Position numbers and translations under genes: made by a program. Below the pieces are notes generated by a model. The model ran no database searches, was not told the DNA's origin, and saw only the letters and a program-made list of their open reading frames with translations. From contig JAJEKV010000041.1 of NCBI GenBank assembly GCA_021234155.1, positions 4,330,829 through 4,394,828 on the forward strand: 64,000 nucleotides of DNA, given 5' to 3'. This document shows positions 1,995 through 49,459 of the stretch, piece by piece (the first letter of the stretch is position 1; every line of letters starts with the position of its first letter). Source of the stretch: Isoetes taiwanensis (taxonomy: Eukaryota > Streptophyta > Lycopodiopsida > Isoetales > Isoetaceae).

Positions 1995-4496
1995 TGTTGA
2001 AGGTATTCCTGGCAAACCTTCAACCTCAATGGTTGAGAACCTCCAGGTTGCTTAAGGCAACCAATCTGTGGCTAAATCCCTGCACAAATCAGCCCAAACT
2101 AGCTTGTGAACAAGTTGTCCCTAAACAAGAAAAAACTGTCTGCCAAACTCTGATTGCCAAATGAAATGGGATGATTGTTTTTTGATGGGAGCAATTGCAT
2201 TTGGTCCTCAGGAGACTCTAGAAGACTCTTGCAAAAGTCAGAGGCAAATGGTTGACCAGAACTAGGTGAAAAATCGTCTCCTGGGCAGAGAGCTCAAACT
2301 TGCAGATGGGAAAATGTGAGGAATTATTTTGAGTTTCTTTCTTTAACACCTTCTGCCTAACCTATAGAACACGTGCATCATGTTGAAACAACAGAAAGTT
2401 TGCAGTAGTGTGCACAAATGCCATTTTCTGTAGATTTTTTGTGTCAGTCTGAAGCAGAGCTAAAAACAAGCTTTGAGTTGTGGTTTAACGTGACCCTTTG
2501 ACTTTTATGTAAAGGAATTGGCTTCCTAGAGATGAGTACAGGCTCTAGATGAACAAAATCTAATGCAGGATGCTACTTGACTAAACTTTTTTGATTTTTT
2601 GAAGAATTATCACTAACTTGACAATGCAGTATTGAATATGCACTTTAGATTGAGATTTAAGCTAAGACAACTTATACAAACCGTAGTTACTTTTGTTGTT
2701 GAGACTCAAGCACTGCTACAGCATAGGTGGAGCCACCAACATTTGAACTTCAGATCAATACAAGACACATTCTTCACCAACTTCAAATTTTCATTCAAAG
2801 GAGCTTTCAAGGATTACAATGAGTGAATTCCCCAGTGATTTAACACAGAAAAATTCATGAAATCCGTGAATCAAAGGTAATACATGACTTCAAAGGATGA
2901 TATAAGACTTTATTGCATCAGATCTTCAGGAAATCTGACACAAGGAGGCAGTACAGGGCAGATAGAGGTCATTCATCAGTAAGATGCTGGATTTGATCAC
3001 TCAAGACGCTGTGGTGCTCGAAAAATTCCTGAAGCCTCATTAATCCCTTAAACCCGACAATTTCTGGTCGGTTCTTGATGAAACGGATCGGATTTGGCCT
3101 CTTCTGCTTGTCAGATTCTTTCTTGACCTGTAAAGTAGTCGGCTGAGGTGTTGTAACCATGATTTCTCTTTCAAATTGATGTCCCCTTTTTCGAATAAAC
3201 CCCTCTAACGTGGCCTTGCTCTTGTCTGACAACAATAAATGAGGTTTTAACCGTTCTTAGTGAGATTCTTGGCATCAAAAATGCTAAATCGGGCCGGTTT
3301 GGTCATGATTTGCCTGTTAGTTAGGCTGCATTCTCGGATCTTGCCATGATTTTAGGGTTCTTCACGAAAAACAGAAATACCCCACAGGCGTTCAGCGAAA
3401 AATGGGCTCGGCGGATTTCCACGCGGCTAAACATGGTTGGCCAGAAAATGACATGGATTTTGGGGGGTAACCAAGCTAATTGTTTGCGAAAATGAGGTAT
3501 GGCGCGCATCCCAAGAACAACTAAACCAAGGGCTAGATGTGGTCAAAATGAGAAGTTATGACCACCACTTTGCATGATTTTTCACGAGCTTTCAGGTGGA
3601 AAAAACAAATTTTGAAAATAAGCAACTTCATTTTTTGGCCCGTTTTCCATGGTGTACAAGGTCATGTGGCATATGGGTGGTGACTTGGCAAATGGTGATG
3701 ATGTGGCATGGTGAAGTGGAAGGCAAGGTGTCAAAGAAAATTTCCCTAGGTAAAATCTTGATGGTGTATCAAAGTGTGAATGACACGTGTTGGGTGACTT
3801 GGTGATGATGTGGATGAGGTGTGCATGATTTTGATGGTGAGGTGGCACTAAATAGTGATTTTTCGACTTTGACCTAGCCCTTTTTGGGGTAGTCAACTTA
3901 GGCTTTTTGAGACTTGATCTTTGACCAATACTTTGGTCTTGAACTAATGATGTGATGGATTTGTAGACCTTCTCTCCTCTTTCTTTTTCTTTTTTAGAGA
4001 GAGAGTGACTTTTTTTTTTCAAACTTGTCATGTGCATGGTAATGGATTATGAAGTGTGTGTGTGATGTACATGGTGCATGAGTATGAAAATATGTGGTGT
4101 GTGAGATTTTGCCCTAGGGAAAAAGACTTTGAGCTGATAAAGGAAGGGTATGAGGAGTGAGTATGGATGTGAGCAATGCCTTCTTGAGCCAAGAACTCTA
4201 AGATAGTGTAAAAATCTCAAAAGGTGTCAAGACAACATACTCTTTGGGGGGTCTTCCAATCTTTGACTAGGGGTCTTCTCTCTTTGACTTCTTTTTCAAC
4301 ATTTGACTCAAGTCTTGCTTCCTTTTGCTAACTTGAATGCTCCTTTGAATGTTCTCCATTGGCCTTCAACTTAGTGTCAAGATTTGTCTTCATACCTAAA
4401 CAATGAGCTCCAAATAGAAATGTCTTGCACATGTGTCTTGATCTTCTTGTGATTTCTTGTGAAGTTGCTCTTACATGCTGCCACAACATGGCAGCA
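1995..4496 (-). repeat. 3' LTR of giant gypsy element
   Basis: This 2502-bp segment matches 51775-54111 along nearly its whole length. It keeps about 190 bp (roughly 2870-3060) that the other LTR lacks, and it lacks about 35 bp near 2280 that the other LTR has. Its right end reads TGCTGCCACAACATGGCAGC then A, an inverted repeat at the LTR terminus. Short open frames inside occur in both copies but look non-coding. Confidence 0.9.
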
Positions 4497-5017
4497 TCAT
4501 GCTAAACAAACAAAGGGAGTATGAAATGGAGATAGTGTTCTTCAAATGAGCTTGCCAATGTGGGAAAATGGTTGGCAATGCTTAGGGAGAAGGCAGGTGT
4601 GTATGGGAACAAGGGTGATGGAAGAAAGGCTGTTTGAGTGGTCAGATGAATATGAATGAATCAAGTGATGAACCTCCATGACAAAATGATGATCTTGTTA
4701 GGAATGTGACTGCCATGTGGAGGTATGGTGGCAGTTTTGACTTGGTTTTGAAGGAAATGGAGATGGGGAAAGGGCTTGTGATGGATTTTGGCCAACTCTG
4801 AGCAGATTAGGTGTTTGTGAGTGTTTTGAAGGGTGAACCTGCATGGTAATGTGTGTGATATGCTATTAGTCTGAGCATGTTTGAAGCTCTTCTTGATGTT
4901 TTCCTAATAAGTACACATGACTAGGAAGTAAGGAAAGTGTTGTTTGCATAAGAAAGTAAACCTAGGCCTAGCTAAGTCTGATCTAACCTACAACTACCTA
5001 ATTTTCTGTAAATAGGA
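4497..5017. other. Gypsy 3' untranslated region
   Basis: This lies between the end of integrase and the 3' LTR. No gene was seen. A clear polypurine tract directly next to the LTR was not recognised in the minus-strand reading, which is unusual for an LTR element and may reflect decay. Confidence 0.5.
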
Positions 5018-5979
5018 CTATTCAAATAGACTTAAGGCAACATGTTGTTGCCAGTACCTCTTTAAGTGAAGGACATTGAAAGGATTTGGCAATTCTTGGC
5101 CATCTGTGAGATCCTTGAGCCAATAAGACTCCCTGCCAGCCTCACCAATGACCTCATAGGGCCCCTCCCATAAATTCTCAAACTTTCTTGCAACCTTTTC
5201 TCTGGCCTTGTTCCATTTTAGCACAAGTTCTCCTGCTTTTATGGTACCTTGTAATATGTGAGCAGCTTTGAATGCTGCCATATCCTTGGTTTTTTCAATA
5301 AGACTGCATTTTCAGCATCATACCTGTGCTCTTCAAGTTGCATCAACCTGATGAACCTGTCTTGCAAAGCATCTTCCATTTTGAGGTTAATAATATGCGC
5401 CATTCTTAAAGAAGGCAACTCTAGCTCTATAGGTAGAACAGCTTCAATGCCATAAACCAAACTAAAAGGGGTATGCTTAGTAGCATGCTTTATGGTGGTT
5501 CTGTAGGCCCATAATGCATCAGTTAGCTTCAAATGCCAATCTTTTTTGGATATGCTTACTGTTTTTTGTAGAATTGACTTAAGTAGCTTGTTTGTTGACT
5601 CTGCCTGGCCATTTCCTTGAGGATAATATGCTGAGCTTTTTGTGTGTTTGATCTTGAGGGTGCAGAGTAGGTTGTCAATCACTTCATTGACAAATTGTGA
5701 TCCTCTGTCTGATATTAGCTTCAGGGGGATGCCAAATCTGGCACAGATATTTTCATGAAGGAATCTGGCTATTGTCAGGGCATTGGCTTGTCTCAATGGC
5801 ACTGCTTCTGCCCATTTTGTGAAATAATCAGTAGCTACCAGTATAGACTCATGATGAGCAGAAGAAGGAGGATCTATAGGCCCTATAAAGTCCAATCTCC
5901 AGATTTGGAAGGGTCCTGGAGATATTATGACTGTCAGAGGAGCAGGCTGAAGGATTCTTTTTCCAAAGATTTGGCATTT
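5018..5979 (-). pseudogene. Gypsy integrase (core and C-terminal part)
   Basis: Integrase inserts the retrotransposon DNA into the nuclear genome. The rve core is visible on the minus strand with the catalytic triad in order: Asp in WRLDFIGP, Asp in LISDRGSQF and Glu in GNGQAESTNK. A GPYEV module lies downstream in a second frame (5281-5018), so one frameshift separates core from tail. At 5980 the gene is cut by the 8.5-kb DNA transposon. The N-terminal zinc-finger half lies at the end of the RT segment beyond 14501, and the split falls between the two Cys-containing motifs of the HHCC finger. The gene is therefore broken by both insertion and frameshift. Confidence 0.88.
5976..5979. repeat. 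4-bp target duplication ATTT (left)
   Basis: ATTT here and at 14502-14505 flank the 8.5-kb transposon. Removing the element and one copy leaves the integrase reading frame continuous. Confidence 0.75.
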
Positions 5980-6004
5980 AACACGATTGCAAATTAAACG
6001 GGAG
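5980..6004 (+). repeat. Left terminal inverted repeat
   Basis: The repeat begins AACACGATTGC and ends ATTAAACGGGAG; it pairs with 14477-14501. It runs into an 11-bp stem hairpin at 5996-6023 (AAACGGGAGTG, loop TTGCAT, then the complement), a subterminal foldback not matched exactly at the other end. Confidence 0.8.
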
Positions 6005-6333
6005 TGTTGCATCACTCCCGTTTCAAAGATTCCCTTTAAAAAAACACCAAGTTTCTAAAATAAGCCTTTTTTGATAGTTGTTAAGAATTTCTAGAGGTTT
6101 GCATTTTTTTTCATGCCATTTTGGCCCATTATTAGACGAAAACTTTGTACTTATGAAACACAAATCATAAAAATAGCAAAATTTAGGCATAGACTTGAAG
6201 AGACTGAAAGCATTACAAAAAACAAGCACCAGAATAGAAAGGAAAAAAAAGTACTATGTTTTTAATAAATTGTTGTACATCAATATTGAAGATTCATTGT
6301 AATAAATAATGATAATTTTAATATCACGATGAG
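6005..6333. other. Transposon left subterminal region, no gene
   Basis: AT-rich sequence follows the end of the methyltransferase gene. The stretch AAAGATTCCCTTT near 6025 also occurs inverted near 14430, extending the similarity of the two ends past the TIR. Confidence 0.5.
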
Positions 6334-7013
6334 TCAAAGATCTACATCATAGTCCTCCTCATTCTTTTTGCTGCTCTCTGCCATCTCGTCCTTCTGTTCT
6401 ATCTGCTCCTTTACTGGGGACTTGAGTTTTGTATCCTCTTTGTTCTCTGGAATGGTAGCTAAAGCTACTTCTTTAAGCTCTGCAAAGGTTGCCTCATCGT
6501 CTAGTGAGCTGGAGAATGGAGGTTGTATCTCTGAGGACGTTAGTTTAGCATAATCAGATGAAGACTTGGCCCCTAACTCCTGATTTTCATCTGGTAAAGT
6601 AGGTAAGGCAGCCGATCTCATCTTCACAAAATGCACGACCTCCTTATCAATATCCACGGCTACACACGCTTCTGCGGCCCTTCTTAAGTGCACATGCGAT
6701 AGTAGTACGAAACCGGAGAAAGCATCAAGTACCCAATCTCACCGGCGCGAGAACATGTCCGGGGAGATGGTTGATGAGCTTTTGTGGTTTCTCGTAGTGA
6801 TTCACAATCCCGCCTTGTGCACTTGGGTCCCGCAATTTACTGTAAGAGGCTCATTTGGAAACTCTAGGACGTTTGAAAAGTTTTGACAAAGCGGCAAGTT
6901 AAAGTGATCCATGGTCCTCTTCCCATCAAAACTCCAATAAGCTACATGAAGGTACTCTACCTTCTTTGAGCAACCTTGGTCCTCCACCATGGTAGTTGAT
7001 GTTCGTTTTGTAC

Positions 7014-7145
7014 CTAGTGAAGCATATAAAGTGATATTAGCAAAAACAAGAAAACACTTCGAAAACCAGAAACAGGAAATACTATTCCGGAATACACACT
7101 ACGTTATTAAAGAGAAAAGTAATTGTATTCTGGAATAAGACTTAC
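7014..7145 (-). other. Predicted methyltransferase intron (132 bp)
   Basis: The donor is G|GTAAGT and the acceptor CTTCACTAG|G. It holds two palindromic sites, TATTCCGGAATACACA at 7083-7098 and TGTATTCTGGAATA at 7124-7137. Confidence 0.6.
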
Positions 7146-7589
7146 CGCACAAAGGTTTTCATATCACACTGGAACCGGAGAACCAAAGTGATTTTTGAAA
7201 GCTGATTCCACCAAGCCAGACTGCATGCTCGAATGGAACGTAACTAAACGCCAATGTTTGGCCGTTGAGATCTGCTTAATTCCTTCAATAAAAGCATTAA
7301 ACTCTGAAAATTTGAAGGGCTGGTCGTCGTATCTGCTGTCTTTAAGCTTAAACCCATAGGGAAGATCAGCAATAACCAAAGTAAAGTCCTGTGGCTTAAC
7401 CGTTCCGACAAGGTTCGTGCAATCACCATGAATGATTGAATATAAATTGTTTTGATCAAACATGCAGAATCTCTCGTAGTCGGATGGTTCTGGCTCAACA
7501 GTTCTTCTTTCAGCTAACGACCTCTCTTCCCGTGCTGTTCTAACCAAATTCATAAAGCCCTCGGGTAGGTCTTTATTTTTCTTTTTGTT

Positions 7590-7659
7590 CTAAGAAAAAC
7601 AAAACAACAACTGTCAAGAGATCGTTTGTGCGGAGAGAAGGAATTCTAAGTGTAATTAC
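7590..7659 (-). other. Predicted methyltransferase intron (70 bp)
   Basis: The donor is G|GTAATT and the acceptor TTTCTTAG|A after a T-rich tract. It joins an exon with CQTCLMEQL and NVDTWERCKELYPIA to the exon carrying the DLPYG motif. Confidence 0.55.
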
Positions 7660-7798
7660 CCAGCCCTCAAAATTTGGTGAATATTGGACAATGCGCTCGT
7701 CGGATGTGGCAATTGGGTAGAGTTCCTTGCACCTTTCCCATGTGTCGACGTTTAGCTGCTCCATCAAACATGTTTGACATGTTATGACGTTTTTTTGG

Positions 7799-8275
7799 CT
7801 GCAAGACGTTAAGGAAACAATGAGTTTAAACAAAAGAATGAAGGCAACGTAAAAGAAAAACAAATACAAGTCAAGCTAATTGTATTCTGGAATACAAACC
7901 GGTTAACTTGTGATGCTACCTCGAAACAATATGCAGAAAATAGTTCTACTACAGGACAAACACATTGCTTCTCTAAAGGAACGCATGCGTATTCCAGAAT
8001 ACACAGGCCAACATTCAGAGGAGCAATGTGTATTCCGGAATACACATGCCTTCCTTCACACGGGCAATGTGTATTCCGGAATACACAATGCCTTTCTAGA
8101 GACAAGCAATGTGTATTCCGGAATACACAATGCCTTTCTAGAGACAAGCAATGTGTATTCCGGAATACACATTGCCCGTGTAAAGAAAGGCATGTGTATT
8201 CTGGAATACACTAGCCACGCCGATGTTTTTGGGAATCTAACATGCAATAACTAATGTTTGTGTCAGAAAACTTAC
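7799..8275 (-). other. Predicted methyltransferase intron carrying palindrome array 1 (477 bp)
   Basis: The donor is GTAAGT and the acceptor GTCTTGCAG|C. Almost half of it is the palindrome array at 7987-8212. A further site (7880-7897, TTGTATTCTGGAATACAA) lies closer to the acceptor. Confidence 0.6.
7987..8212. repeat. Palindrome array 1, six 20-bp units at 40-42 bp spacing
   Basis: Units start at 7987, 8027, 8068, 8110, 8152 and 8193. Four are the perfect palindrome TGTGTATTCCGGAATACACA, and the outer two carry one or two changes. Spacers are 21-22 bp. The third and fourth spacers are identical, and the second and fifth are near reverse complements of each other, so the array has overall dyad symmetry. 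Spacing close to four helical turns would put every site on the same DNA face. Open frames across it are artefacts. Confidence 0.92.
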
Positions 8276-8505
8276 TTGTGTAATTCCTTTGACATTTCTT
8301 CTAGGCTAAACTCCTTATCAACAACTTTTTGGAGAAGCTGCTCGAGAAGCTCGCGTGTCGGGAGAAGCCACCGCATTTCCGACGGTAATGGTCATTTCTT
8401 TTTTGGTATGCGTCGAGCTTTTTTTTCTTAGTTGTCTCCTTTCCCTTGCTCTTTAACTCCCTCGCTTTCGAACATTGTAAATATCTCGGTCCCGAGTTCC
8501 CAAAT

Positions 8506-8566
8506 CTGTTCAAGAAGATTCACGTTAAATAGTTGATTTGCTATTACGAATACATTTTGTGCTTAC
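8506..8566 (-). other. Predicted methyltransferase intron (61 bp)
   Basis: The donor is AAG|GTAAGC and the acceptor CTTCTTGAACAG|A. It separates the exon ending near AFRDGK from one beginning IWELGTEIF. Confidence 0.55.
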
Positions 8567-9755
8567 CTTGCCATCTCTAAAAGCTAATCGGAACCGGTTA
8601 TGTCGTGGTGTCGAGACCGCCTTTTGTTGGCCTCGTCATATTTCAGCAAAGATTCAATAGCACACGCCTCCTTAAGCTCCAAGGAAAATGCTGGCTTCTT
8701 CTTGTCCTCACCGTACTTTTCCTTGAATATTACGTTACTCCCACGCGCATGAACCGGATCTTGTCGTGAAGCTCATCTTTAGTTTATATTAGTTGTCGAC
8801 ATTGTGGGTGTTGGCAACGATTTTCGCTTCTTCATCGGTAAGACCACGATGCGCTTGGCCTTGAGGGGCGGAGAGGTACCTCGGGTTCTTCTTCTCTTTA
8901 TAAAGTTGCCTTCTTGCCTTAAAGCTGTGATTGCCTCCCAAGACGTAGTGAGTGTAGATCTCTGCGTTTTCTCATCATAGTCCCTGGGGGTTTTGCACTC
9001 TTCCCCTCATCAACAAGGACAACTATTGGGGCCACATGAGCATTTGGATTGCTCCTTATTCTGTCTTTCAGGTTCCTTAAGTGATCGGCATAAATTTTGC
9101 GAACCTGAAGTGGCCTTTCACCAGCTTCATTTTTCGGTGGAAGCTTCATTGAAGTGACTGGCAAATAAATTACACCTTGCACAAACTTGTGCAGGTTAAT
9201 CTCTTCCATCTTTTCAGCTGTCTTGTCAACTTTTTTTTCCTTTATAGCAACACCAGGTGCTTTACCCTTCCCCTTCTTCTTCTTAGGTTCCTCGGAAATA
9301 TCCTCTGCTGCAATTAAGGCCGTCTGCTTTTTTTTAGGCTCTTTAGCAGCAATTGTGTCCCTTGGCCGCTTCTTTGGTGGTGGTGACGGTGGCCTTTCGC
9401 CGGACTGTGATGGACTCCCAGATTGTGATGAGGAACTGCTCGGGCTCGGTTGCTCATCCTCTTCCTCGGGCTCGGACTCGGACTCGCTGTAGGGGAAGTC
9501 TTCGCTCGTTGTGCTTCGAACATAGTTGATGATGGCACTGAGCGACCTCTTGCTGATGTAGTGAGCAACATACTTGTACAGAGGACGAGGATTTACTTTC
9601 GCCACTCTAAAATAGGATTCATCAACATGAATAAAGCCTTGGGATGTCTGAAAAGACAGTCTCCCTCGCTGGCCGGACTCCCCAGCTACTTCACTCACGG
9701 ACTGGATGGTGCCCATGCAAACAAATTCCCTCTCATCGTACCTTTTTTGCTCCAA

Positions 9756-10890
9756 AGACTCAGAAGCAGGACATGTAGGAAAGTAAGTGTCTTTGTACTT
9801 TCCGTATACCCCTTGTAAAAAACCATTGAGTTTGAAAGTTTTTAGAGATGGATGGCGGTATGAGATGACTCCTCAACCCTTCTCTCTGTGGGTGCGGTTT
9901 CGTTGGGATTTTAACGGTTCTCTTGTGTTTGTTTCTTCTTTGCCTTCTTATGCATGCAAATTGTGTGTAAACACGATCTTGTTAGAGAAAGCAGTGGCAA
10001 AAAACTATTCCAGAATACAAAATGTCTTGCGAAAAGGAAAAAACAAGGGCAAAAAGAGGACCAAAATGCCAAAACAACACTGCAATCTTGACAAAAAAAC
10101 AGGTCTAAACAAGTTTTAAAAGCAGAAAAAACACCTAAAGTCACTACAAAAATCACGGAAAAACTACCTTACAAAACAAAAGAACACGAATGTGTATTCC
10201 GGAATACACTTTCGCCTTTGAGGAAAGCGCGAGCGTGTATTCCGAATACACTTTCCTTTTCCTCAAAGGCGAAGTGTATTCCGAATACACTTTCGCCTTT
10301 CCTCAAGCGAAGTGTATTCGGAATACACTTACGCCTTCTCGAAAAGCGAAAGTGTATTCCGGAATACGCTACGCCTTCCCTCGGCGAAAGTGTATTCCGG
10401 AATACACATTAAATCTTTCCCTCGAAGCGTATTCAGGAATACACTTTAAGCGAGGGAAAAGCGAATGTGTATTCGGAATACACTTTCGCCTTCATCGTAA
10501 ATGTATTCGGAATAAAGCAGGACACACAAATGATTGTACCTTGTACTTTCTTACTCACCTCTCCATGTTTTCTCTATGAGTATCGGAATACTGACTCTGA
10601 ATATTATATTCGAAATACCGGGCGACTTCAGCTCGAATTTGGAATCAATACCCCAAGGCGCCAAAATTTCCTTTTAAAGGTGTCCATTCCCTCTTGCTCG
10701 TTTTTCTATGTGAAGTGGAATACGTTTGGCCTTCTTGTTACGCTCTAGTGTATTCGGGAATAGCTTTTAGTTTGCCTTTAAACTTAATTGTTGCGGGAAG
10801 TTCTACTTTTAGTAGGCGGGCTTGTATTACGGAATAAGAAAAGCTCTGCGATGAGAAACATTATCTAAACTCTACAATCGTTTTGCGCCT
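9756..10890. promoter_or_regulatory. Divergent intergenic region of the transposon
   Basis: This lies between the methyltransferase (leftward) and transposase (rightward) starts and must hold both promoters. It contains palindrome array 2 (10191-10514) and isolated sites near 10005-10020, 10747-10762 and 10823-10837. Apart from these, no conserved promoter box was recognised. Confidence 0.55.
10191..10514. repeat. Palindrome array 2, nine units at 35-44 bp spacing
   Basis: Units start near 10191, 10235, 10274, 10312, 10352, 10390, 10427, 10467 and 10501. They share GTGTATTC then GAATACAC; several have lost one central base (TTCCGAA or TTCGGAA instead of TTCCGGAA). Most spacers are themselves imperfect inverted repeats built on TTTCGCCTTT and AAAGCGAA, so the whole array could fold into alternating hairpins. 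It is more diverged than array 1. Confidence 0.9.
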
Positions 10891-10932
10891 TAAGATGACA
10901 AACCGCCGTCAACAAACTTCCACCACCTTTCG

Positions 10933-13900
10933 TTGTCTCAAGCTCGCTGCAGTTACGAGGACACGCTTGGGACCAACGTCGTTTTCTTCCAACACCGAAT
11001 TCTCCAGACTCCTACCTCTGCTTCATCGTTCTTGCTTCTCGAAGACACACCGAGTCCAGCACGTAACAGACTTCCACCACCCTTCCAACCGTCACCAAGT
11101 CCTGTAGACAGCACACTGGCATCTCCTTCCAAAGAATCACCACTAGTTCGGAGCGGGCTGCCACCACCCTTTGCTCCATCCCCGGGACCTGCAGAAGCTC
11201 CACAACAAAGGGTGCTCAAGAACAAGCTACCCCCCCCTTTTGTAGTTTCGCCTCCTTCGTGCAAACATACAAGGAACACAGAAAACACAGAAGACTGTGA
11301 GATTCACTACAATTTCTCTCACCAGGACTTCACTACAAATGAGGACGAAGCTCCAGCATGCACTCCTCTTCACACAACAAGGGTTGTGACACATGGATTT
11401 GCAGAATTCCAGTCCGCTCTAAAGGAGATGTTTGCAAGAACTCCTTTTCAAGATGGTACAAGAACAGCTGATGCCACAACCTCTTATGGGCCATCACCAC
11501 CCTTTAACACTGTACCCCCGCCTATTCCGGGAACAACTTCACGTGGTCTGTTTTCCTCTACAAGCACACCACTCAGGACAGAGGAAGTCACCCCCAGAGT
11601 AGAAGTTTCATCAGAAGATGAAGACACCAACGAGGAACAAAGAGATTACATGTTCTCAAGCCAATCTTCAAAGAAATTCAAGGTGGATTTTGGTTTGAGG
11701 GCTTGCTCCTCTGCAAGAAGAAGAAAAATCTTATGGATGAAACAGAAAATGAGGAGACTTTTGAGAACTAAATGCTGCTCATTGGGTTGCATCAACAGAG
11801 ACTTAACATGGCTAAATTACGAAAGCGGTTAGAGACAACTACTGAGTTCCATGACATTGGCGGACCCGAATGCCTACTTAGCTTATCATGTAAGACCAGA
11901 CCGCAAACACCTTCTTGCACTACATTAACCGCCAAGAAGTTTGCGAAATGTTTTATGGTTGTCCACCGTTTAGGGTCCACAAGAATGTCTAGAATACACA
12001 AAAAGATGGACAAAAATCCAAAGAATCGATGATCATTGTGGACCAAGAAGAGTTGTAACCATGCATGCCCTTCTTCTTTGTCCCTGGATGGAGAAATATT
12101 TTAGAGAAACATGTGAGAAGCTACCCTAACGACAACATGTATCATTTAACCGATAACATCACCAAAAAGATGTTTTTAATGAGTACAAAGAGACTTGCAC
12201 TTTCAGCTTCAAAGACATCTCTTACTCACACTTCACCGGTGTGGAAAAGTGAATTCGGTCTTGTGAAAATTCCTAGAAAACATAGAATGTCCGTTTGCTC
12301 GAGGTGTGCGAAATTAAAGAGTCAACGAAAACCGCAAAGACAGAGGTCGAAAAGAAGTAAGTTCATGTTCTCCAATCTCTCACTTGTTTTAGAGAAAATG
12401 CTTTGACCTGATTTCTTCTACGTGATATTGTGCAACGTGAAACCTTGCCGGACATCGTGAACAACAAGCGCGAGAGAGAGAAGAAAGCTTGCCAAGCATA
12501 GAAAAAAAAAAAAACTCTTGAACGTCCAACGCAATACATGTGTCTTGTGATTGATGGAATGGACCAAAAAAAACAACTCTACCACATTTCTTGAACATTC
12601 CTAAAGATGTGCCAGAGGAATGTTTTGTTAAGGTCCACCTTGTAGGAGCTATGGTCTTCAAAGGAAGTCTAAGGTGCAAAGTTTTTTTGACGTATCCAAA
12701 CTTGCATGGTGACCCCAACCTCACAATTACAATTCTTAACAAGGTCTTGTGCGAGCAAGAGCAATTACCACCAGTGCTTTATCTGCAACTTGACAATACT
12801 ACAAGGGAGAACAAGAATCAAACACTCTTTGCGTACTGTGCCATGTTAGTGGAGCTAGGGATCTTTAGAAAAGTGAAGCTCGGTTTCTTACTTGTAGGCC
12901 ACACTCATGATCAGATTGACCAAATGTTCAGCAGATTTTCTGTGCGCCTTAGAAGGAAGAAGGCTTTCTGTCTTCCTTCTTTAGTTCGAATTATTGAAGA
13001 TTCTTACACTCCTACTCCAAAGGTCGATCTTCTTAAAGAGATCGCTGATTTCGAGAGTTTGTTTTCTCTCAACGTTCAAACAGAGAACAAGCTTTGGAAC
13101 AAGTTGAATGATCTCACCTTTCAACATCATATCAAGTTCTACTTGAAGGATGGCCAAAGCTTCTTCTGAGGGAAGAAGTATACCACAACTAAGGACCGAG
13201 TCCGCCGAGGGATTACGCTTCCTTAAATATATTCCGCACACTTCCTTCATAGAACGTCTTTGAGCAACTTCCTCTCAAAAATCCTAAGGAGTCCAAGCGG
13301 AAGAAAAGTACCCCGAGTCATCCTTAAAAGCCATTGAAAATGGAATTTCCTCGAGCTTTAAGTACTTCTTAGAAGAAGATCGGATGTGGTGGAGTAATTT
13401 CTTTCTCGAGCAGTAAAATTGTTGTACAAAACATAGCTCTAAGACAGTTGCAAGAACCATTTCAATGGCCTAACACCTTCCATCAACCCCAGCACCAAGC
13501 AGGTCCAAGCAGTGCTACATTTGCACCTGAAGTAGAAGACGAGGAGGACCGAGTCATGTACCTCGGACCAAGACGCAGGAATGAGCCCCAAGGTAATATC
13601 ACAGAAATTACCAAAGGTATGCTAATTGCTCTTCCGACCCGAGGAGGATGACAAAGGTCGACCGCTTACGGATAGCAAAAGTGCTTGACATACCAAGGAG
13701 GAAGGCTTAGTCACTAAACTCAAGATTCATTGGCTTGCAACACGCCGAGAAAATGCTTTTGAAGGTAGATATGAGTTAGAAATGAGAAGCCAAGGAAAAG
13801 GGAGAAAGTCCAAGAAGGTGGGTTGTAGGGACGAAATTTGAACCTTAATGACGTGACTATATTGTGCTATGATTTTAAATTGAAATCTGACAATCGTCTA

Positions 13901-14125
13901 CGCCAGAAGACTATCAATTTGCTTAAAAAAGCTTGTAATTATGAAGAAGATGATGAAGAAGGTGGTGACAATGCTTCACCGTCTGTTGATAGTGATGAGG
14001 AAGATAACTCAAGCACTTCCTCGAGTGACAGTGAAAGAAGTGAAGGTGATGACGATGGCATAAATGAACATGAGGACGTCCTGGATCCCTCTCTCATCAC
14101 TCCTCACACTTTTGCACATAACTGA
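10933..14125 (+). pseudogene. DUF7869-like DDE transposase, decayed
   Basis: This is the probable transposase of the 8.5-kb element. The N-terminus (10933-11600) has four related Pro-rich motifs (RLPPPFQPSPSP type). After several frame changes a Cys motif follows (VCSRCAKL, near 12290). The catalytic-looking core comes next: VIDGMDQKK (Asp at 12553-12555), LQLDNTTRENKN (Asp at 12792) and GHTHDQIDQMFSRFS (Asp at 12909 and 12918). This D..D..(D/E) spacing suggests an RNase H fold. A C-terminal part (13700-13920) has KIHWLA and VTILCYDFKL, and the protein ends in an acidic Ser-rich tail (13950-14125). Such proteins are widespread in eukaryotes and largely uncharacterised. Multiple frameshifts and stops make it a pseudogene, although some breaks could be unrecognised introns. 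Confidence 0.72.
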
Positions 14126-14476
14126 GTCTTAGAAAAAGACTGTAAATTTTGATGTGAATATGAAGATTCTATCTTCAAATTTTGAGAATACTACAGTTTC
14201 AATTACAGACTTACTTCAATTTTTTGTTAAATATTTTATCCTCTGAAATTAGAGTTTCTCTCTTAAAACATACTTTAAGAACATTCTTTTTGCTAAGAAA
14301 AGTGACACTTTAAAAAAGTCAATTCCTTCGTTGCAAAAAAAATTTAGTCATTTCGGGGGGGGTCAAAATAGAATTTCATGCATCTTTTTTTTTTTTAACC
14401 TCATTTTACCCCCTTTTTCGTAAAAAAAAAGGGAATCTTTGCGGAATATTCCTTTTGCTCTCGTTTCAATGATTTG
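14126..14476. other. Transposon right subterminal region, no gene
   Basis: AT-rich sequence with T tracts follows the transposase. It contains the 10-bp palindrome GGAATATTCC at about 14443-14452, which resembles the array core, and AAAGGGAATCTTT, the inverse of a motif near the left end. Confidence 0.55.
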
Positions 14477-14501
14477 CTCCCGTTTAATACGCAATCTTGT
14501 T
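14477..14501 (-). repeat. Right terminal inverted repeat
   Basis: Read inward on the minus strand it begins AACAAGATTGC and ends ATTAAACGGGAG, matching the left repeat at 22 of 25 positions. The duplication ATTT follows at 14502-14505. Confidence 0.8.
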
Positions 14502-16240
14502 ATTTGTGGCAACTTCTAATGTTCTCAAAGCAGTCTTTGAAGATTGAAGGCCAGTAGTAACCTGATCTAAGTATATTTTTGGCATTTGTGTCTGCAGCAA
14601 AGTGACCTCCACATACACCATCATGGCAGGCTTTTAACACCAATTCTGCTTCAAACTTGTCCACACATCTTAGCAAGACACCTTCTTTGTTCACCCTGCC
14701 CAAAACATCACCAATTAGCCTAAACTTCTTGACCTTGTCTTTGAATCTCTTGTGTTGGCTCGGGCTCTGATTCTTTGGCAGTTCTCCCCTTTCAAGAAAG
14801 TTTCTAATGGCTTGTTGCCAGTCTTCCTCCTCAAGTAGGTTAATTGTAGCCTCTACGTGAGTGCTGCCTAGATCCTCCAAGTCTTCATACTTAAACAAAA
14901 CATCAGTAAGATAAGAGCTAGGATCCTTAGATTTTTTAGTTACCTGAATGTCTATATCATAGTCTTGCACTTTGCAAGCCCACCTGCATAGTTTGGCTTT
15001 CTGTGGTTTCTTTGCAAAGAGCAGGGGCAGTGGATTTTGCTTCATGAACACTTGAGTCTTGCTGTTCTGGATCAGGTGTCCCTGTTTGTCAAACAAATAC
15101 ATCAAAGCTGCTGCACTCTTCTCTAGCCTAGCATATCTCATTTCAATATTAGACCACATTTTGCTGGAAAAGGTCACAATATTGTTTCCTTGCATCAGAG
15201 CAAGGCCTACAGCTTTTTTGGTCACACTCAGGTAGGCTTGGAAGGGCTCAGATGTGTCTGGTGGCTTACGCAAGGTTGATTTGCATATGGCTTCAATGAT
15301 TGCCTCAAAGGAAGCTTGGCATGCCTCTGTCCACTCTACAGATATGAATTTGCTTCCTTTTTTTGAGAACTTCCTTCCTTTGGTCAAGTTTGTAATAGGA
15401 TGGACTGTATGAGAGAAGTGTGGCACATACATCCTTAAGAAGCTTGTCATGCCCAGAAAGCTCTTGACTTGCTTGATAGTCTTGGGTGGTGCTAAGTTCA
15501 TGAGGGCTTGGATCTTGCTTTCTGCCACCTGGATTCCTTGATCTGAGACCTCATGCCCAAGTAGATCCTCTTTTGAGCAAAAGAAAATGCATTTCCTTGG
15601 GTTTAAGCTCACTCCTCCTTTCCTGCACAAAGAATAGAGTCGTGTGAGGTATGTCATGTGATCCTTTAGCTTAGTATTGACACACAGATCATCTAAATAA
15701 ACTCTGAACAAACTAAGAGCCATATCCTTGAAAATGGTGTCCATTGCTCTTTGAAATGTGGCAGATGCATTCATAAGTCCAAAGGGCATTTTTTTCATGG
15801 CAAAAGTCCCCCAAGGTGTGACAAAAGATGTCTTGGCTTGATCCTCTTCTTTGATACTGATCTGGTTAAAACCTGAGAAGCCATCTAAGAATGAATAGAC
15901 CTCCTTTGCCTGCAACACTTCCTCAAGAAAAGGCAGAGGATAGATTGTTGTCTTGTTCAAATCCCTGTAATCAATGCATATCCTAATGGTTTTGTTCCTT
16001 TTTTCAACAGGCACAATGCAAGACAACCAATCAGGATTAATTATTTCCTTTATGACTTCAGCATCTTTCATTTTGAAGAGTTCTTCCCTAATGAGATCTA
16101 ACAAAGAACTATTAATTCTTCTAAGTTTTTGCACAACTGGTTTTGATTTTTCTTTTATCTTAATTTCAAACTCACAAACACTCTTATCTACTCCTAAAAT
16201 TCCTTATAATCCCAAGCAAAAACATCATTCCAAGTATTAA
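14500..16240 (-). pseudogene. Gypsy reverse transcriptase, RNase H and integrase zinc finger
   Basis: An open frame of 544 residues runs from 16134 to 14500. It shows RT motifs in order: the RICIDYRDLNK box, SFLDGFSGFNQI, FAMKKMPFGLMNA and the catalytic VYLDDL. A degenerate gypsy RNase H follows, then the integrase H-H-C-C finger up to GHFAADTNAKN and the first Cys. A stop supplied by the inserted transposon ends the frame. Upstream of 16134 the protein continues in another frame to about 16310 (NTWNDVFAWDYKEF), so at least one frameshift is present. It is the polymerase of the giant gypsy element, and the archaeal-type RNase H lies directly upstream. Confidence 0.9.
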
Positions 16241-21134: not shown

Positions 21135-21253
21135 TAATACCTTGTTTAGGATCTGATTACCAACTCTTGCAGTGCAGGTGAAAGCATCAGGGTCATGCTC
21201 TTCTTGTCTTAGCATTTGCTCAGCTATATGATTGGTAAAAACAACTTGCTTGC
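21135..21253 (-). pseudogene. Gypsy protease, N-terminal strand
   Basis: Minus-strand frame QVVFTNHIAEQMLR, then DPDAFTCTARVG, leading directly to the DGG active site across Helitron 1. It joins the 17179-17559 segment in the same frame when the Helitron is ignored. The right edge is cut by the composite insertion at about 21254. Confidence 0.8.
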
Positions 21254-21633
21254 GTTATGTGTTTTAGACGCATATGTGTTATTTAGATGCATATGTGTTT
21301 TAGACATATGTGTTATAATAAATATGTGTTATATAGTAGACATATGCCGCATATGTGTTATTTAGACGCATATGTGTTATTTACTAAAACACATATGTCT
21401 ACTCTCAGACGTTTTCGACGGACAAATTTCTTTGTGTTAGAACAGAAGCACACTGATCAACCAGAATAAACCCAAAGAAAAATCTGATTTATAGATAAGA
21501 AACCCACAGATTCAACCTAAAAATCAGAAAAAACCAGGATCCCACGGATTGAACCCATTGTAACAAAAAAAAAGTGTATGAATCAACCAAAAAGAAACCC
21601 AAGCACCGTAAAATCCACCTACTTCTGTGTGTT

Positions 21634-21789
21634 TTATCCACAAATAACTTTGTATCTTACACTCCTTGCACTTTCTAGAATCGGAACGAACTGTTTTGCC
21701 ACCCTCACCCCAATCGCCATTCGCCTTTGCTCAATGTCTGTTTGAGTTAGCGTCTTGTTCAAGAAATTTTCCCAAGCTGGTGCCGCCAT
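21634..21789 (-). pseudogene. Truncated B3-domain exon, copy A
   Basis: It starts MAAPAWENFLNKTLTQTDIE and is the first third of the B3 protein encoded intact at 48461-48886. After VICG it runs into unrelated sequence and stops, so the DNA-binding fold is incomplete. Confidence 0.7.
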
Positions 21790-22285
21790 GTCTGAACATA
21801 AATAAATGTTAGAAACTGTCATCCAGCATTTAGCATTTGTTATGAAATGTTGTCTACTAAATAACACATATGCGTTATGTGTTTTAGACGCATATGTGTT
21901 ATTTAGACGCATATGTGTTTTAGACATATGTGTTATAATAAATATGTGTTATATAGTAGACATATGCCGCATATGTGTTATTTAGATGTATATGTGTTAT
22001 TTACTAAAACACATATGAGAGTAGACATATGTGTTACTAAAACACATATGTCTACTCTCAGACGTTTTCGACGGACAAATTTCTTTGTGTTAGAACAGAA
22101 GCACACTGATCAACCAGAATAAACCCAAAGAAAAATCTGATTTATAGATAAGAAACCCACAGATTCAACCTAAAAATCAGAAAAAACCAGGATCCCACGG
22201 ATTGAACCCATTGTAACTAAAAAAAGAGTATGAATCAACTAAAAGGAAATCCAAGCACCCTAAAATCCACCTACTTCTGTGTGTT

Positions 22286-22435
22286 TTATCCAACTTTGTA
22301 TCTTGCACTCCTCGCACTTTCTAGAATCGGAAAGAACTGTTTTGCCACCCTCACCCTAATCGACATTCGCCTTTGCTCAATGTCTGCTTGAGTTAGCGTC
22401 TTGTTCAAGAAATTTTCCCAAACTGGTGCCGCCAT
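22286..22435 (-). pseudogene. Truncated B3-domain exon, copy B
   Basis: The same 5' exon piece as copy A, ending after SARYK. It is almost identical to copy C at 28383-28532, showing recent amplification within the tandem array. Confidence 0.7.
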
Positions 22436-22639
22436 GTCTGAACACAAATAAATGTTAGAAACTGTCATCCAGCATTTAGCATTTGTTATGAAATGTTGTC
22501 TACTAAATAACACATATGCGTTATGTATTTTAGACGCATATGTGTTATTTAGACGCATATGTGTTATAATAAATACTAGTAAACGTGTGCCCGGCATTGC
22601 CGGGGTAATGTCCTAGGCATGTGTTTTTACTCGGCTTTT

Positions 22640-26800: not shown

Positions 26801-27903
26801 GCCATGTTCGCGAACAATAGACATGGCATCCCGATACCGTTGGATCATGTATCTCTGACCTCCTACATGTGAGGATGGTAACACAACTTTTCTACCAATA
26901 GCACTTGCATCATCTCCTTCAAAGTCCATAACGCCTGCAACATGTCTTTTTCGAATGGTGTGTTGATTCAACACAATGAATTGTAGCCTTTCTTGTTCCA
27001 TCTTCGCAAAACATATCACAAATGTATTCTTGAAACAACCGGCCCGACCATGTGAAGGGTGGATGCATGTCCACGTCGCGTGAACAGATGATACCTGTAG
27101 TATTCCATAATAGTTACTTCCTTTGCACCACTCCGTCCATGAGGTATTTTAAAATGCCATCCATCTGTACCGTAGGGAAGAAGCAACACAAAGTGCAATG
27201 GGTCATATCTTTGAAAGTGATATGCATCTATAAGTTTCAAGCCACCATCCTTAGAGTGTATAATAATATCTCTCTGACCATCCTCGGGCTTATCATCAAT
27301 AGGCATTAAGACAGCCACCTCATTTGCAGTTGGAGCATTATATTGCCTCCTCACAGGATTTTGCACGTTGCAAGAAGGTATACGCAAACGATATCCATGG
27401 TTGGATGATTACGCATAATTTGTGCCGCATTCAAAAATATGCTAACAAATGGATTGTGCTCTGTCATAAGGGCCCCAGAATCGCACAACTATTTCTTGTT
27501 TCAGTCCATCAAAAATAGACATCCTACGTTCAACTTGCATGTCATCACCATCCATGATGTATATTTGTGCGAATTTTGCATGCTCTTGATGGCCTTGCTG
27601 TGGCAATAGCGTTCCCATCTTATGGCACATGCGGCCATTGACCCTAAAGGTATAGGCCCCACCAATAGCATTTGCCACCGCCTCATCAATTTTCACGCCC
27701 ACTGAGGCAAATGAGAATATATTATTGTACTTCCTGATGTTCGTGCGAAAGTGATCACCTACACTATCTGTTCTCGTATATAGGTCAAATAATGCCTGTG
27801 GTGGTTCAGGAATCAATGGTAGTTGAACCTTTCTATTTTCACATGCCCGACATTTCTTTTTAACTAAGAGCTCTTCTATCCATTGCATAGCCCCACAATG
27901 CAA
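23833..27903 (-). pseudogene. Helitron Rep-helicase (RepHel)
   Basis: A large protein broken into at least eight frames. In order: an N-terminus with HCGAMQWIEEL (27900); a Rep motif FITMTANANWKEI (about 26760-26800) and the HUH-type LPHVH (about 26580-26620); GPCGIGYPNSPCMQDGKCTKHYPR (26450-26380), the conserved Cys/His stretch after it; a Pif1-type helicase with Walker A GAGGSGKSF (about 25140) and Walker B IIWDEAPMM (about 24900); and helicase motif TINKSWGQT followed by HGQLYVALSRA (24030-23930). Gln is replaced by Trp in the TINKSQGQT consensus. This is the rolling-circle transposition enzyme for Helitrons. Frameshifts, stops and a missing 5' end mean no active product here. Confidence 0.9.
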
Positions 27904-28985
27904 TGTTAGAAACTGTCATCCAGCATTTAGCATTTGTTATGAAATGTTGTCTACTAAATAACACATATGCGTTATGTGTTTTAGACGCATATGTGTTATT
28001 TAGACGCATATGTGTTTTAGACATATGTATTATAATAAATATGTGTTATATAGTAGACATATGCCGCATATGTGTTATTTAGACGCATATGTGTTATTTA
28101 CTAAAACACATATGAGAGTAGACATATGTGTTACTAAAACACATATGTCTACTCTCAGACGTTTTCGACGGACAAATTTCTTTGTGTTAGAACAGAAGCA
28201 CACTGATCAACCAGAATAAACCCAAAGAAAAATCTGATTTATAGATAAGAAACCCACAGATTCAACCTAAAAATCAGAAAAAACCAGGATCCCACGGATT
28301 GAACCCATTGTAACTAAAAAAAGAGTATGAATCAACTAAAAGGAAATCCAAGCACCCTAAAATCCACCTACTTCTGTGTGTTTTATCCAACTTTGTATCT
28401 TGCACTCCTCGCACTTTCTAGAATCGGAAAGAACTGTTTTGCCACCCTCACCCTAATTGACATTCGCCTTTGCTCAATGTCTGCTTGAGTTAGCGTCTTG
28501 TTCAAGAAATTTTCCCAAACTGGTGCCGCCATGTCTGAACACAAATAAATGTTAGAAACTGTCATCCAGCATTTAGCATTTGTTATGAAATGTTGTCTAC
28601 TAAATAACACATATGCGTTATGTATTTTAGACGCATATGTGTTATTTAGACGCATATGTGTTATAATAAATATGTGTTATATAGTAGACATATGCCGCAT
28701 ATGTGTTATTTAGACGCATATGTGTTATTTACTAAAACACATATGAGAGTAGACATATGTGTTACTAAAACACATATGTCTACTCAGACGTTTTCGACGG
28801 ACAAATTTCTTTGTGTTAGAACAGAAGCACACTGATCAACCAGAATAAACCCAAAGAAAAATATGATTTATAGATAAGAAACCCACAGATTCAACCCAAA
28901 AATCAGCAGGATCCCACGGATTGAACCCATTGTAACTAAAAAAAAGGGTATGAATCAACCAAAAGAAACCCAAGCACCCTAAAAT
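27902..28985. repeat. Tandem 645-bp palindrome/B3 units, right block
   Basis: Unit starts at 27902 and 28549 (647 bp apart) continue the array seen left of the Helitron. Sequence identity with 21807-22451 is very high by eye. The second unit lacks the truncated B3 exon after it and instead passes into the gene-G promoter region. Confidence 0.88.
28383..28532 (-). pseudogene. Truncated B3-domain exon, copy C
   Basis: Nearly identical to copy B, starting MAAPVWENFLNKTLTQADIE and ending after SARYK. It is part of the tandem unit. Confidence 0.7.
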
Positions 28986-28991
28986 CCACCT

Positions 28992-29060
28992 GCTTTCTAA
29001 CGGTACTTTCTAACGGTTCTTTCTAACGGTACTTTTACCTTCAAACTATATATACCAATA
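28992..29060 (+). promoter_or_regulatory. Triple TTCTAACGG repeat and TATA-like box, copy X
   Basis: Three direct copies of TTTCTAACGG(T) lie 14 bp apart, followed by CTATATATACC 20 bp later. TCTAACGG(T/C)(T/C) resembles the plant MSA element bound by three-repeat MYB proteins at G2/M promoters. The same block occurs at 49388-49452. That it drives gene G downstream is inference. Confidence 0.5.
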
Positions 29061-32596: not shown

Positions 32597-33757
32597 ATGA
32601 ATATGACAGTATCGCATTGTACAGTCTGTAGTGATCAACTGGACGAAGAGCACAGCGGCACGATATACCTCGAAGCAATGGCGGAAAGCACCAGCCTTAG
32701 TCAACTGAAGAGAGCAGATGCGGCAAAAGCACCACCAAGTCAGCAGGACCTCAGAGATTTTCTAGCACAGATAAACAAGCAGCTGGAGACTAGGATACCC
32801 AGCATGGATGCACTCAACACGCTGACAGAATCAGTCAACCGTAATAAAGCAGCCATCGCCAGCATGGATGGGAGGATAGAGGGAGTGGAAAAGACGAGCG
32901 AGGAAGTGCAGCGCAGAATGAACGAGCTGGAGGAGGAGAGAGCCAAGATTCTGAATAGGTTAGTTGAATTAGAAAAAGGAAATGTTCAATTGAATGCATG
33001 GGAATCGTTTGATAAAATAAAGCCTCACATCATAGAGTATGAGGAACAGAATAGAATTAGGCATGACGTTAGGTTGATAGGGGTAGCAGAGAAACCTAAC
33101 GAGGATACGTACCGAGTGACTGCAGAAGTGATAGAGGTGGTCTTCAAAGAGCACCGGAGCATCATTGTCAAAGCCGTACGGTCGGGCCAATGGAGGGGGA
33201 GGGCGAGGCACATAAATTTGACGCTCAGGGACCGGTCAGCCAAGGAAAGATTGCTGCGCACGGGATCCAGGCTGAGGAACGGGATCAAGGTACAGGAAGC
33301 CCTAACAGTCATGCAACGGCAAGGGCTACACAGGGAGCTGGCCAAGGCCAGAAAACTGAACCAGGCAGGGGTACAGGCAGGGGTCAAGAATGGCAAGGTA
33401 TATCTGCACAAAAGAGTACGAGAATTGACAGGAACGGCGCAGGAGCGAAGTTGGGGAATACTGGAAATAGGGAGATCGACAGATGCAGAGAAGGAGAATA
33501 TAAACCCAATGGGGGTCCTGACACAGGGACACGAGAGCATGGCAATGGGGAGGGCAATAGCAGCACTAGCCCCCGACATGAACCAGTACAGAAGGGAAGA
33601 AAGAGGCGGAAAAGAGGACGGCATAGACCGAACAACGCAAGCCGGGAACATAGATCCAACCCCAACCATGAAGACAAGGGGGAGGCCGAGAAGAATGGGA
33701 AATGGAGCAGAACACACGGAGACCCCAAGAGAGCAATCTCGGGGGAAGAAACGCTGA
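32597..33757 (+). CDS. LINE ORF1 protein (386 aa)
   Basis: An intact frame. The N-terminal part has a Cys pair (CTVCSDQ), then a long heptad-rich coiled coil (about residues 40-130, with NRNKAAIASMDGRIEGVE and RRMNELEEERAKILNRLVEL). The central part (about 145-260) resembles the L1 ORF1p RNA-binding region, with VRLIGVAEKPNEDTYRVTAE and INLTLRDRSAKERLL. A basic, low-complexity C-terminus follows. ORF1p-type proteins coat the LINE RNA and act as nucleic-acid chaperones. ORF2 overlaps its 3' part in the -1 frame. The first Met was used; an internal Met at MAESTSL is an alternative start. Confidence 0.8.
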   Translation: MNMTVSHCTVCSDQLDEEHSGTIYLEAMAESTSLSQLKRADAAKAPPSQQDLRDFLAQINKQLETRIPSMDALNTLTESVNRNKAAIASMDGRIEGVEKTSEEVQRRMNELEEERAKILNRLVELEKGNVQLNAWESFDKIKPHIIEYEEQNRIRHDVRLIGVAEKPNEDTYRVTAEVIEVVFKEHRSIIVKAVRSGQWRGRARHINLTLRDRSAKERLLRTGSRLRNGIKVQEALTVMQRQGLHRELAKARKLNQAGVQAGVKNGKVYLHKRVRELTGTAQERSWGILEIGRSTDAEKENINPMGVLTQGHESMAMGRAIAALAPDMNQYRREERGGKEDGIDRTTQAGNIDPTPTMKTRGRPRRMGNGAEHTETPREQSRGKKR

Positions 33758-48460: not shown

Positions 48461-48886
48461 TTATTCTTGAGCAGGATGTGCAGGGGGCGGAGGAGGGATA
48501 TAGGAGCTTATAGCATATTGGCAGCTATCTTTCTTCTTGTACAGACTCACTACAACCCCCACCACAAGACCTTTATTTTCGACATAGTCTGACCATCCGA
48601 CGCTTATCGATGGCATTTGATTATCGCAAAAAAACAACTGGTATTGCATAGGCCACACTTGCCCTTCCACATCCAGGTCTGTAAAAAGAAACATCCTCTG
48701 CCTCAATCTCATTTCTTCATCGCTTGTGCACTCCCCACAAATAACTTTGTATCTTGCACTCCTCACACTTTCTAGAATCGGAAAGAATTGTTTTGCCACC
48801 CTCACCCCAATCGCCATTCGCCTTTGCTCAATGTTTGTTTGAGTTAGCGTCTTGTTCAAGAAATTTTCCCAAGCTGGTGCCGCCAT
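48461..48886 (-). CDS. B3-domain DNA-binding protein (141 aa)
   Basis: An intact frame starting MAAPAWENFLNKTLTQTNIE. The whole protein is essentially one plant B3 domain: LT.(T/S)(N/D)I near the start, VAKQFFPIL as the first strand and helix, an insertion, LFTDLDVEGQVWPMQYQLFF as the central beta strands with the conserved Trp, SISVGWSDYVENKGLVVG as the GW..FV..K.L..GD equivalent, then VVSLYKKKD. The tail is Pro-rich (IPPPPPAHPAQE). Val replaces the usual Asp in GD. Three truncated copies lie in the 645-bp units. Directly upstream is the palindrome cluster 48950-49170. It may be a captured regulator or an element-borne DNA-binding protein. Confidence 0.7.
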   Translation of the reverse strand: MAAPAWENFLNKTLTQTNIEQRRMAIGVRVAKQFFPILESVRSARYKVICGECTSDEEMRLRQRMFLFTDLDVEGQVWPMQYQLFFCDNQMPSISVGWSDYVENKGLVVGVVVSLYKKKDSCQYAISSYIPPPPPAHPAQE

Positions 48887-48899
48887 GTCTGAACATAAA

Positions 48900-49385: not shown

Positions 49386-49387
49386 TA

Positions 49388-49452
49388 CTTTCTAACGATA
49401 CTTTCTAACGGTTCTTTCTAACGGTACTTTTACCTTCAAACTATATATACCA
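49388..49452 (+). promoter_or_regulatory. Triple TTCTAACGG repeat and TATA-like box, copy Y
   Basis: Counterpart of 28992-29060, with the first repeat changed to TTCTAACGA. The TATA-like CTATATATACC is conserved. Confidence 0.5.
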
Positions 49453-49459
49453 ATACATA

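Follow-up and report, generated by a model that had tools for sequence, protein, structure and literature searches.

What a transposon might do with a DNA methyltransferase of its own is the question raised by a locus of Isoetes taiwanensis. The window, which is the whole stretch analysed (64,000 nucleotides of contig JAJEKV010000041.1, assembly GCA_021234155.1, positions 4,330,829 to 4,394,828), contains at 5980-14501 an element of 8,522 bp with two divergent genes, one for a DUF7869 protein and one, on the opposite strand, for a ParB-like stretch followed by a methyltransferase. The answer that we favour, tentatively and with rather less than even confidence, is that of a cut-and-paste DDD transposon with a self-targeting accessory system, in which a ParB-like/adenine-type methyltransferase would use palindromic iterons of the element as landing sites.

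The element is bounded by terminal inverted repeats (TIRs) of 25 bp, identical between the ends at 22 of the 25 positions, and has the 4-bp duplication ATTT on both sides. It splits the integrase gene of a Gypsy retrotransposon, and excision of the element with one ATTT restores an unbroken translation (...SCHKCQIFGKRI...). These repeats and the read-through empty site uphold the exact borders, TIRs, duplication and split integrase gene that an earlier note on this DNA had described. When the genome (1,658,258,908 bases in 1,110 contigs) was searched, the TIR core ATTAAACGGGAG was found 814 + 808 times, versus 267 + 264 times for a reversed control, and among the first 100 of the 1,622 places listed, pairs spaced 8.2-8.8 kb were common. 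The copies sampled from these 100 places, a non-random set, were 16 pairs at 8.2-8.8 kb, one 6.8-kb pair and seven short pairs of 2.8-4.3 kb; wider or nested pairs of >11 kb were excluded. Exact 4-bp duplications were present in 26 of 27 tested copies (the window copy plus 20/20, 3/4 and 2/2 in three further batches), and the duplicated 4-mers had no fixed sequence (in the 20-locus batch, TAAT appeared twice and all others once). This count was made without L034, L037 and L038, whose ends were not located. One of the 27, L033, was left out of the element counts, its TIR pair being the left end plus methyltransferase exons duplicated in inverted orientation, with no true target duplication. The window element is a real mobile DNA element and a member of a large multi-copy family. 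Scans of viral contigs for the transposase and for the TIR found no relative.

The plus-strand gene matched DUF7869 (PF25273) at 12591-13169 with an E value of 3.9e-52 (177.1 bits, cut-off 26), and the copy L036 also exceeded the cut-off with 174.8 bits. As the predicted fold is RNase H-like, with three acidic residues at the canonical places (DDD triad), DUF7869 is, on the strength of this model, a DDD transposase, and together with the PF25273 match this supports the DDE-like protein proposed before. Both genes of the window copy are broken in several frames. The longest open transposase frame was of 358 residues or fewer in every copy among L010-L026; less broken copies exist outside that set, for instance L034 and L036 with open N-terminal frames. 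In the stretch compared across copies the breaks were scattered and largely unshared, and the spreading of one group of copies (A1, see below) after a single shared frameshift found no support there. Besides real decay, errors of long-read assembly in repeats may contribute to the breaks, and the family is therefore not called dead.

Two further observations concern these copies and this domain. Around window-copy coordinates 8690-8880, the copies L010-L026 have scrambles and indels that form clusters and are mostly not common to several copies, next to sequence that is well conserved; these clusters could be assembly errors, conceivably near modified bases. In the Branchiostoma DUF7869 proteins P0070 and P0073, a Ulp1-type protease domain (Peptidase_C48) stands in the same chain, as another accessory partner of a DUF7869 transposase. 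A literature search, which here and below covered open-licence PMC papers, found no paper naming DUF7869.

The accessory gene on the minus strand is split, with exon matches at 6445-7800 and 8275-9215 and a splicing pattern predicted from sequence. In the window copy alone the gene is too broken for either the ParB or the methyltransferase part to reach a Pfam cut-off, and gave weak hints only (CcrM, E 0.65; a PHROG DNA methyltransferase, E 0.022). In contrast, one unedited exon of L036 matched N6_N4_Mtase (PF01555) with an E value of 2.7e-16 and 60.6 bits, against a cut-off of 26.7. A profile of four copy-group sequences retrieved adenine enzymes first (CcrM, 1.5e-8; MboIIA, 1.4e-6; RsrI, 6.6e-5), the cytosine-N4 enzyme PvuII having an E value of 0.22, and tblastn of a composite query against plasmids reached 1e-10, the top listed match being a site-specific DNA methyltransferase. 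By these similarities the opposite-strand gene is a methyltransferase of the N6/N4 class, and the base methylated would most likely be adenine, giving N6-methyladenine (6mA). Ahead of the methyltransferase part, the motif LGGNH(S/A)FKARRQL lies in a stretch of probable ParB/sulfiredoxin-like character, for which "ParB-like" is used here as a name in preference to "ParB". Of the fusion of ParB with an N6/N4 methyltransferase claimed by the earlier note, the enzyme is thus borne out by L036, and the ParB part stays plausible on the weak matches given below. Two protein searches with the read-through window sequence returned no ParB-methyltransferase relative, which is no evidence of absence because the queries were broken. 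A viral-contig match to a methyltransferase exon (L001) was rejected as a chance match, a short stretch in an unrelated open reading frame (ORF).

That the two divergent genes recur together, as also claimed before, was confirmed by comparing the best 150 of 9,902 first-look DUF7869 candidates with the best 150 of the 2,577 that a first look gave for one methyltransferase exon. Twenty pairs lay within 15 kb, the window copy among them, versus 0.4 expected by chance; 17 were divergent, 14 of these with 4.0-5.6 kb between the genes. As 150 candidates were scored per gene, 20 is a lower bound. Six short copies with the same TIRs (L027-L032) have no more of either gene than a remnant of exon mid2 in three (L028, L030, L031). 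Besides the TIRs, they have some 250 bp at the right end and, mostly, the iterons in common with the long copies, and interiors of 2-3 kb mostly unlike them. As they look like non-autonomous derivatives keeping the ends and mostly the iterons, the pairing is not refuted by them.

The iterons, absent from the earlier note, are palindromes of the form GTGTATTC-N0-2-GAATACAC, that is, two inverted 8-bp half-sites, and are mostly 40-42 bp apart. Scanning the window for GTGTATTCCGGAATACAC with up to three mismatches gave 12 matches, all inside the element, where 0.02 were expected; with the same tolerance, 301 iterons were counted in 24 elements (18 long and six short, a set that excludes L035 and L036), versus one in reversed sequence. 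Adjacent gaps of <130 bp numbered 219, of which 138 measured 40-42 bp and 177 measured 36-45 bp. Among 148 perfect sites, the half-sites were separated by 2, 1 or 0 bp in 103, 26 and 19 cases, respectively. The outer flanks are lineage-specific (GCAATGTG, GCAAAGTG, CGAAAGTG, CCAAAGTG and others), and their first three positions are palindromic in 81-85% of the perfect sites. Palindromes so extended could fold in intron RNA, and both positions of the arrays are non-coding, which agrees with iterons that are host transcription-factor sites or RNA hairpins controlling expression, beside a methyltransferase that is an unrelated general modifier. This explanation is nevertheless improbable, as a phasing of 40-42 bp speaks for protein bound to the DNA in an ordered way and the sites track the transposon family. 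Perfect-half-site iterons occur 5,746 times in the genome, versus 0 for the reversed pattern; contigs C1-C21 have 45, of which 37 are no more than 9 kb away from an exact TIR core, a span of 1.8% of the genome, and three of the other eight were examined, all of them upstream of DUF7869 genes from a diverged branch of the same family.

Sliding identity among the 18 long copies defined three modules, given here in element coordinates (E). The first (M1, E1-3250), which holds the left end and the bulk of the accessory gene, occurs in lineages A, B, C, D and D2, which are 53-82% alike per sliding interval (D-D2, 68-87%). The second (M2, about E3250-5750), in which the two genes have their 5' parts with the iteron region in between, is of type I in A1, B and D2 and of type II in A2, C and D. 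Over E3751-4250 the two types are 50-58% alike; within types, A1 and B are 76% and A2, C and D 78-82% alike there, D2 being only 64-71% like A1 and B, a figure that is 74-94% over E4251-5750. The third (M3, E5751-8500), with the catalytic domain and the right end, is nearly uniform (86-96%). The elements are three-module mosaics, and as A1 and A2 have M1 in common and differ in M2, they recombine; gap-repair recombination between copies would explain the mosaicism.

Selection was followed through nonsynonymous (dN) and synonymous (dS) divergence and their ratio omega, from codon counts on alignment columns with group-majority codons or single copies. For all lineage pairs except A1-A2, the accessory gene had a dN of 0.06-0.14, a dS from 0.57 to saturated and, where computable, an omega of 0.03-0.12, whereas the transposase dS for the same pairs was 0.05-0.18. 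In the A1-A2 pair, dS was 0.10-0.17 for the accessory gene and 0.13 for the transposase. With single copies, the accessory gene had a median omega of 0.38 in 21 within-group pairs and of 0.06 in the 52 between-group pairs with computable dS, and the transposase one of 0.47 within and 0.27 between groups (132 pairs). Therefore, anciently diverged accessory genes under purifying selection ride with one more recently shared transposase. The methyltransferase could still be a hitch-hiking relic of self-protection or antirestriction without present function for the element, as the broken genes of the window copy and the short transposase frames of L010-L026 would suggest, and we consider this quite improbable: purifying selection is strong between lineages whose synonymous sites are saturated, less broken copies exist, assembly error may account for some of the breakage, and elements of the same architecture are reported from algae in passages of PMC12477816.

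In each of the 18 long copies, the stretch from mid2 to mid1 contains 3-7 iterons and the one that separates the ParB exon from the transposase core 5-12, although the two M2 types differ as much as described above over E3751-4250. Outside this set, L036 has four sites between mid2 and mid1, and the diverged L035 has none there and four between mid1 and the ParB exon, its intronic array lying one intron earlier in the same gene. Iterons also stand upstream of the transposase core in L034, L037 and L038, and perfect sites were kept in five of the six short copies that lost both genes. Such positions would suit regulatory or assembly sites of the transposase, with a methyltransferase that acts on element ends or target choice, for example by coupling to replication via hemimethylated DNA. 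Dam couples Tn10 and IS50 transposition to replication in this way. That the iterons serve the transposase is unlikely, if worth serious weight, as the arrays of the window copy start some 1.9 and 4.2 kb inside the left end and so are not near the ends, one array is inside the accessory gene, and palindromic arrays suit a ParB-like dimer.

An element-encoded ParB-like methyltransferase together with phased palindromes between the genes and in a predicted intron looks like an addressing system for the element's own methylation. In the self-targeting mechanism favoured here, the ParB-like part would bind the palindromes (inverted 8-bp half-sites, spacer 0-2); with a repeat of 40-42 bp, about four helical turns, successive sites would face the same side of the helix. 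Binding would concentrate the methyltransferase on the promoter region and the intron of the element, and the enzyme would put its mark, most likely 6mA, on the element's own DNA, holding the promoters open against host silencing or tuning their expression. Self-targeted methylation is, by analogy with the anti-silencing of VANDAL/VANC, the closest system that has been tested, the mechanism that would fit best. An activating 6mA mark is conceivable in the light of a 2025 paper, by its title on adenine DNA methylation that is tied to transcriptionally permissive chromatin and is widespread across eukaryotes (PMC12695648). The fullest version of this mechanism is more doubtful: the family would write its own activating mark, its ParB-like/adenine methyltransferase reading phased palindromic address arrays in promoter region and intron, methylating the element and so escaping silencing; the accessory gene would be swapped as divergent cassettes among elements with one transposase, and non-autonomous copies would keep the address and share the protection.

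Several results weigh against self-targeting. Between the two genes, L021 has no perfect site, L036 three sites of which none is perfect, and L035 a single site; the short copy L032 has three degenerate sites only. In L028, L030 and L031 the left iteron cluster is accompanied by the remnant of exon mid2, and the cluster is therefore a block inherited from a long copy rather than kept alone; gene remnants were sought in the other short copies, and none was found in L027, L029 and L032 nor at the right-hand clusters. With some of the evidence from short copies thus explained by block inheritance, self-targeting and its fullest version are slightly weakened, and both transposase sites and host sites or hairpins are slightly strengthened. 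L034 keeps its iterons with no methyltransferase exon found in the 9.7 kb examined, and the iteron core is identical across all accessory lineages, so that no co-variation of protein and site backs their pairing. The ParB-like part itself gave a TIGR03764 match in L024 with an E value of 4.4e-4 and 20 bits against a cut-off of 143.75, weak matches to sulfiredoxin (E 0.85) and PHROG ParB (E 0.3), no ParB match in a Pfam search, and an AlphaFold2 model that failed (predicted local distance difference test, pLDDT, of 36). It could instead be the transposase or a host factor that binds the iterons, and a role of 6mA in Isoetes taiwanensis is hypothetical.

The features of the window copy are collected in Table 1.

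Table 1. Features of the window copy and its target site, in window positions.
Feature	Position	Strand	Basis
Left target-site duplication (TSD), ATTT	5976..5979	.	Flank comparison
Whole element	5980..14501	.	TIRs, TSD, read-through empty site in Gypsy integrase gene
Left TIR, AACACGATTGCAAATTAAACGGGAG	5980..6004	+	Repeat comparison
Methyltransferase exon, motif I region (VLDAFSGSGTT in other copies) and acidic tail	6445..6829	-	Exon match; N6_N4_Mtase in homologous unedited L036 stretch
Methyltransferase exon MT2	6856..7014	-	Exon match
Methyltransferase exon with catalytic motif IV, ADLPYG	7152..7577	-	Exon match; weakly colinear with CcrM motif IV
Middle exon mid2	7660..7800	-	Exon match
Iteron array 1, 7 sites, predicted intron between mid2 and mid1	7880..8211	.	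Motif scan
Middle exon mid1	8275..8508	-	Exon match
ParB/sulfiredoxin-like part, LGGNHSF motif	8614..9215	-	Exon match; several frames in window copy, open in L024 and L035
N-terminal ORF of methyltransferase gene, continuing into ParB-like part	8919..9755	-	ORF
Iteron array 2, 9 sites, between the divergent genes; extra degenerate site starts at 10748	10192..10518	.	Motif scan
N-terminal ORF of transposase gene, proline-rich, CCSLGC motif	10933..11832	+	ORF; similar N-terminus in open frames of L034 and L036
Transposase catalytic domain (DUF7869, DDD) and C-terminal part	12567..13948	+	Pfam, homologous matches, predicted fold
Right TIR, 22/25 matching left	14477..14501	-	Repeat comparison
Right TSD, ATTT	14502..14505	.	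Flank comparison

The host Gypsy, a large one, lies on the minus strand between an apparent pair of long terminal repeats (LTRs) at 2024-4500 and 51788-54116, of 93-95% identity (51 substitutions over two alignments of 1,474 and 877 columns), with a gag-like ORF by eye at 50941-51738 and further nested insertions inside. As the element sits inside this Gypsy, it arrived later than the retrotransposon. Also in the window, an ORF of 890 aa like the endonuclease/reverse transcriptase of a long interspersed nuclear element was seen by eye at 33190-35862, and a 386-aa ORF overlaps its start. Repeats related to each other, from several hundred bases to 1 kb long, lie at 21251-22568, 27902-28995 and 48735-49548, their longer direct matches being 84-99% alike.

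The Sola superfamily, reportedly described by Bao et al. in 2009, is said to combine 4-bp duplications with a DDD transposase. The Isoetes family resembles it in its 4-bp duplication (26/27) and predicted DDD triad, and the name Sola was not attached to DUF7869 in any match obtained. According to passages of PMC12477816, Sola1-1_Ec32 of Ectocarpus carries, beside its transposase, an opposite-strand gene with ParB-like and N4/N6 methyltransferase domains, to which the Isoetes gene corresponds in its strand and methyltransferase and, on weak matches, may correspond in its ParB-like part; green and red algal cases are cited there, and the authors suggest that proteins of this kind bind to the transposon that encodes them and modify it epigenetically. 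Compared by description rather than by transposase sequence, Sola1-1_Ec32 differs in its 21.5 kb and its brown-algal host, and iteron arrays, phasing, cassette lineages and selection tests are not described in those passages. The earlier statement that no described plant transposon with this cargo was known therefore holds for land plants as far as the literature was searched, and fails in general given the Ectocarpus precedent (PMC12477816). Among the papers listed, the literature search found no report of a land-plant ParB-methyltransferase transposon, of such iterons or of such cassettes. As far as these searches go, the type of cargo was already known from algae, and the iterons, the cassette structure and the land-plant case were not found reported.

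VANDALs are MuDR-like, unlike the Isoetes transposase with its DUF7869 domain. In passages of PMC5735166 on Arabidopsis, VANDAL21 likewise encodes an accessory protein, VANC21, separate from the transposase, and arrays of the VANC21 target motif occur within introns of both VANC21 and VANB21 as well as upstream of VANA21. The dense non-coding arrays of Isoetes are similarly placed, in a predicted accessory-gene intron and upstream of the transposase in 18/18 long copies, and in both cases the arrays turn over fast. The VANC21 motif YAGTATTAY is non-palindromic, and VANC targets vary between related elements (PMC5735166), whereas the Isoetes iterons are palindromic with a constant core. VANC induces loss of methylation in the same account; the Isoetes accessory protein, itself a methyltransferase, would add a mark. 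Its closest likeness among adenine methyltransferases is to the bacterial CcrM, MboIIA and YhdJ, with motif IV before motif I and the best structural and plasmid matches; identity is at most about 27% among the matches listed, and the similarity covers the methyltransferase part only. N4CMT of bdelloid rotifers is reportedly a host gene that silences transposons, unlike the Isoetes gene, which belongs to the transposon. Both would be bacterial-type amino-methyltransferases working in a eukaryote, as described for N4CMT in PMC8885841.

ParB-methyltransferase genes had so far been noted in a few algal transposons, with a function that was only suggested. The large Isoetes family (150 scored out of 2,577 candidates that a first look gave for an exon of the methyltransferase) provides a candidate recognition site and evidence from selection that the enzyme mattered, which together make the use of a DNA methyltransferase by a transposon a testable question. 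If the enzyme does mark its own element to stay active, this would be anti-silencing by adding, not removing, a mark, and the family could be one source of land-plant 6mA.

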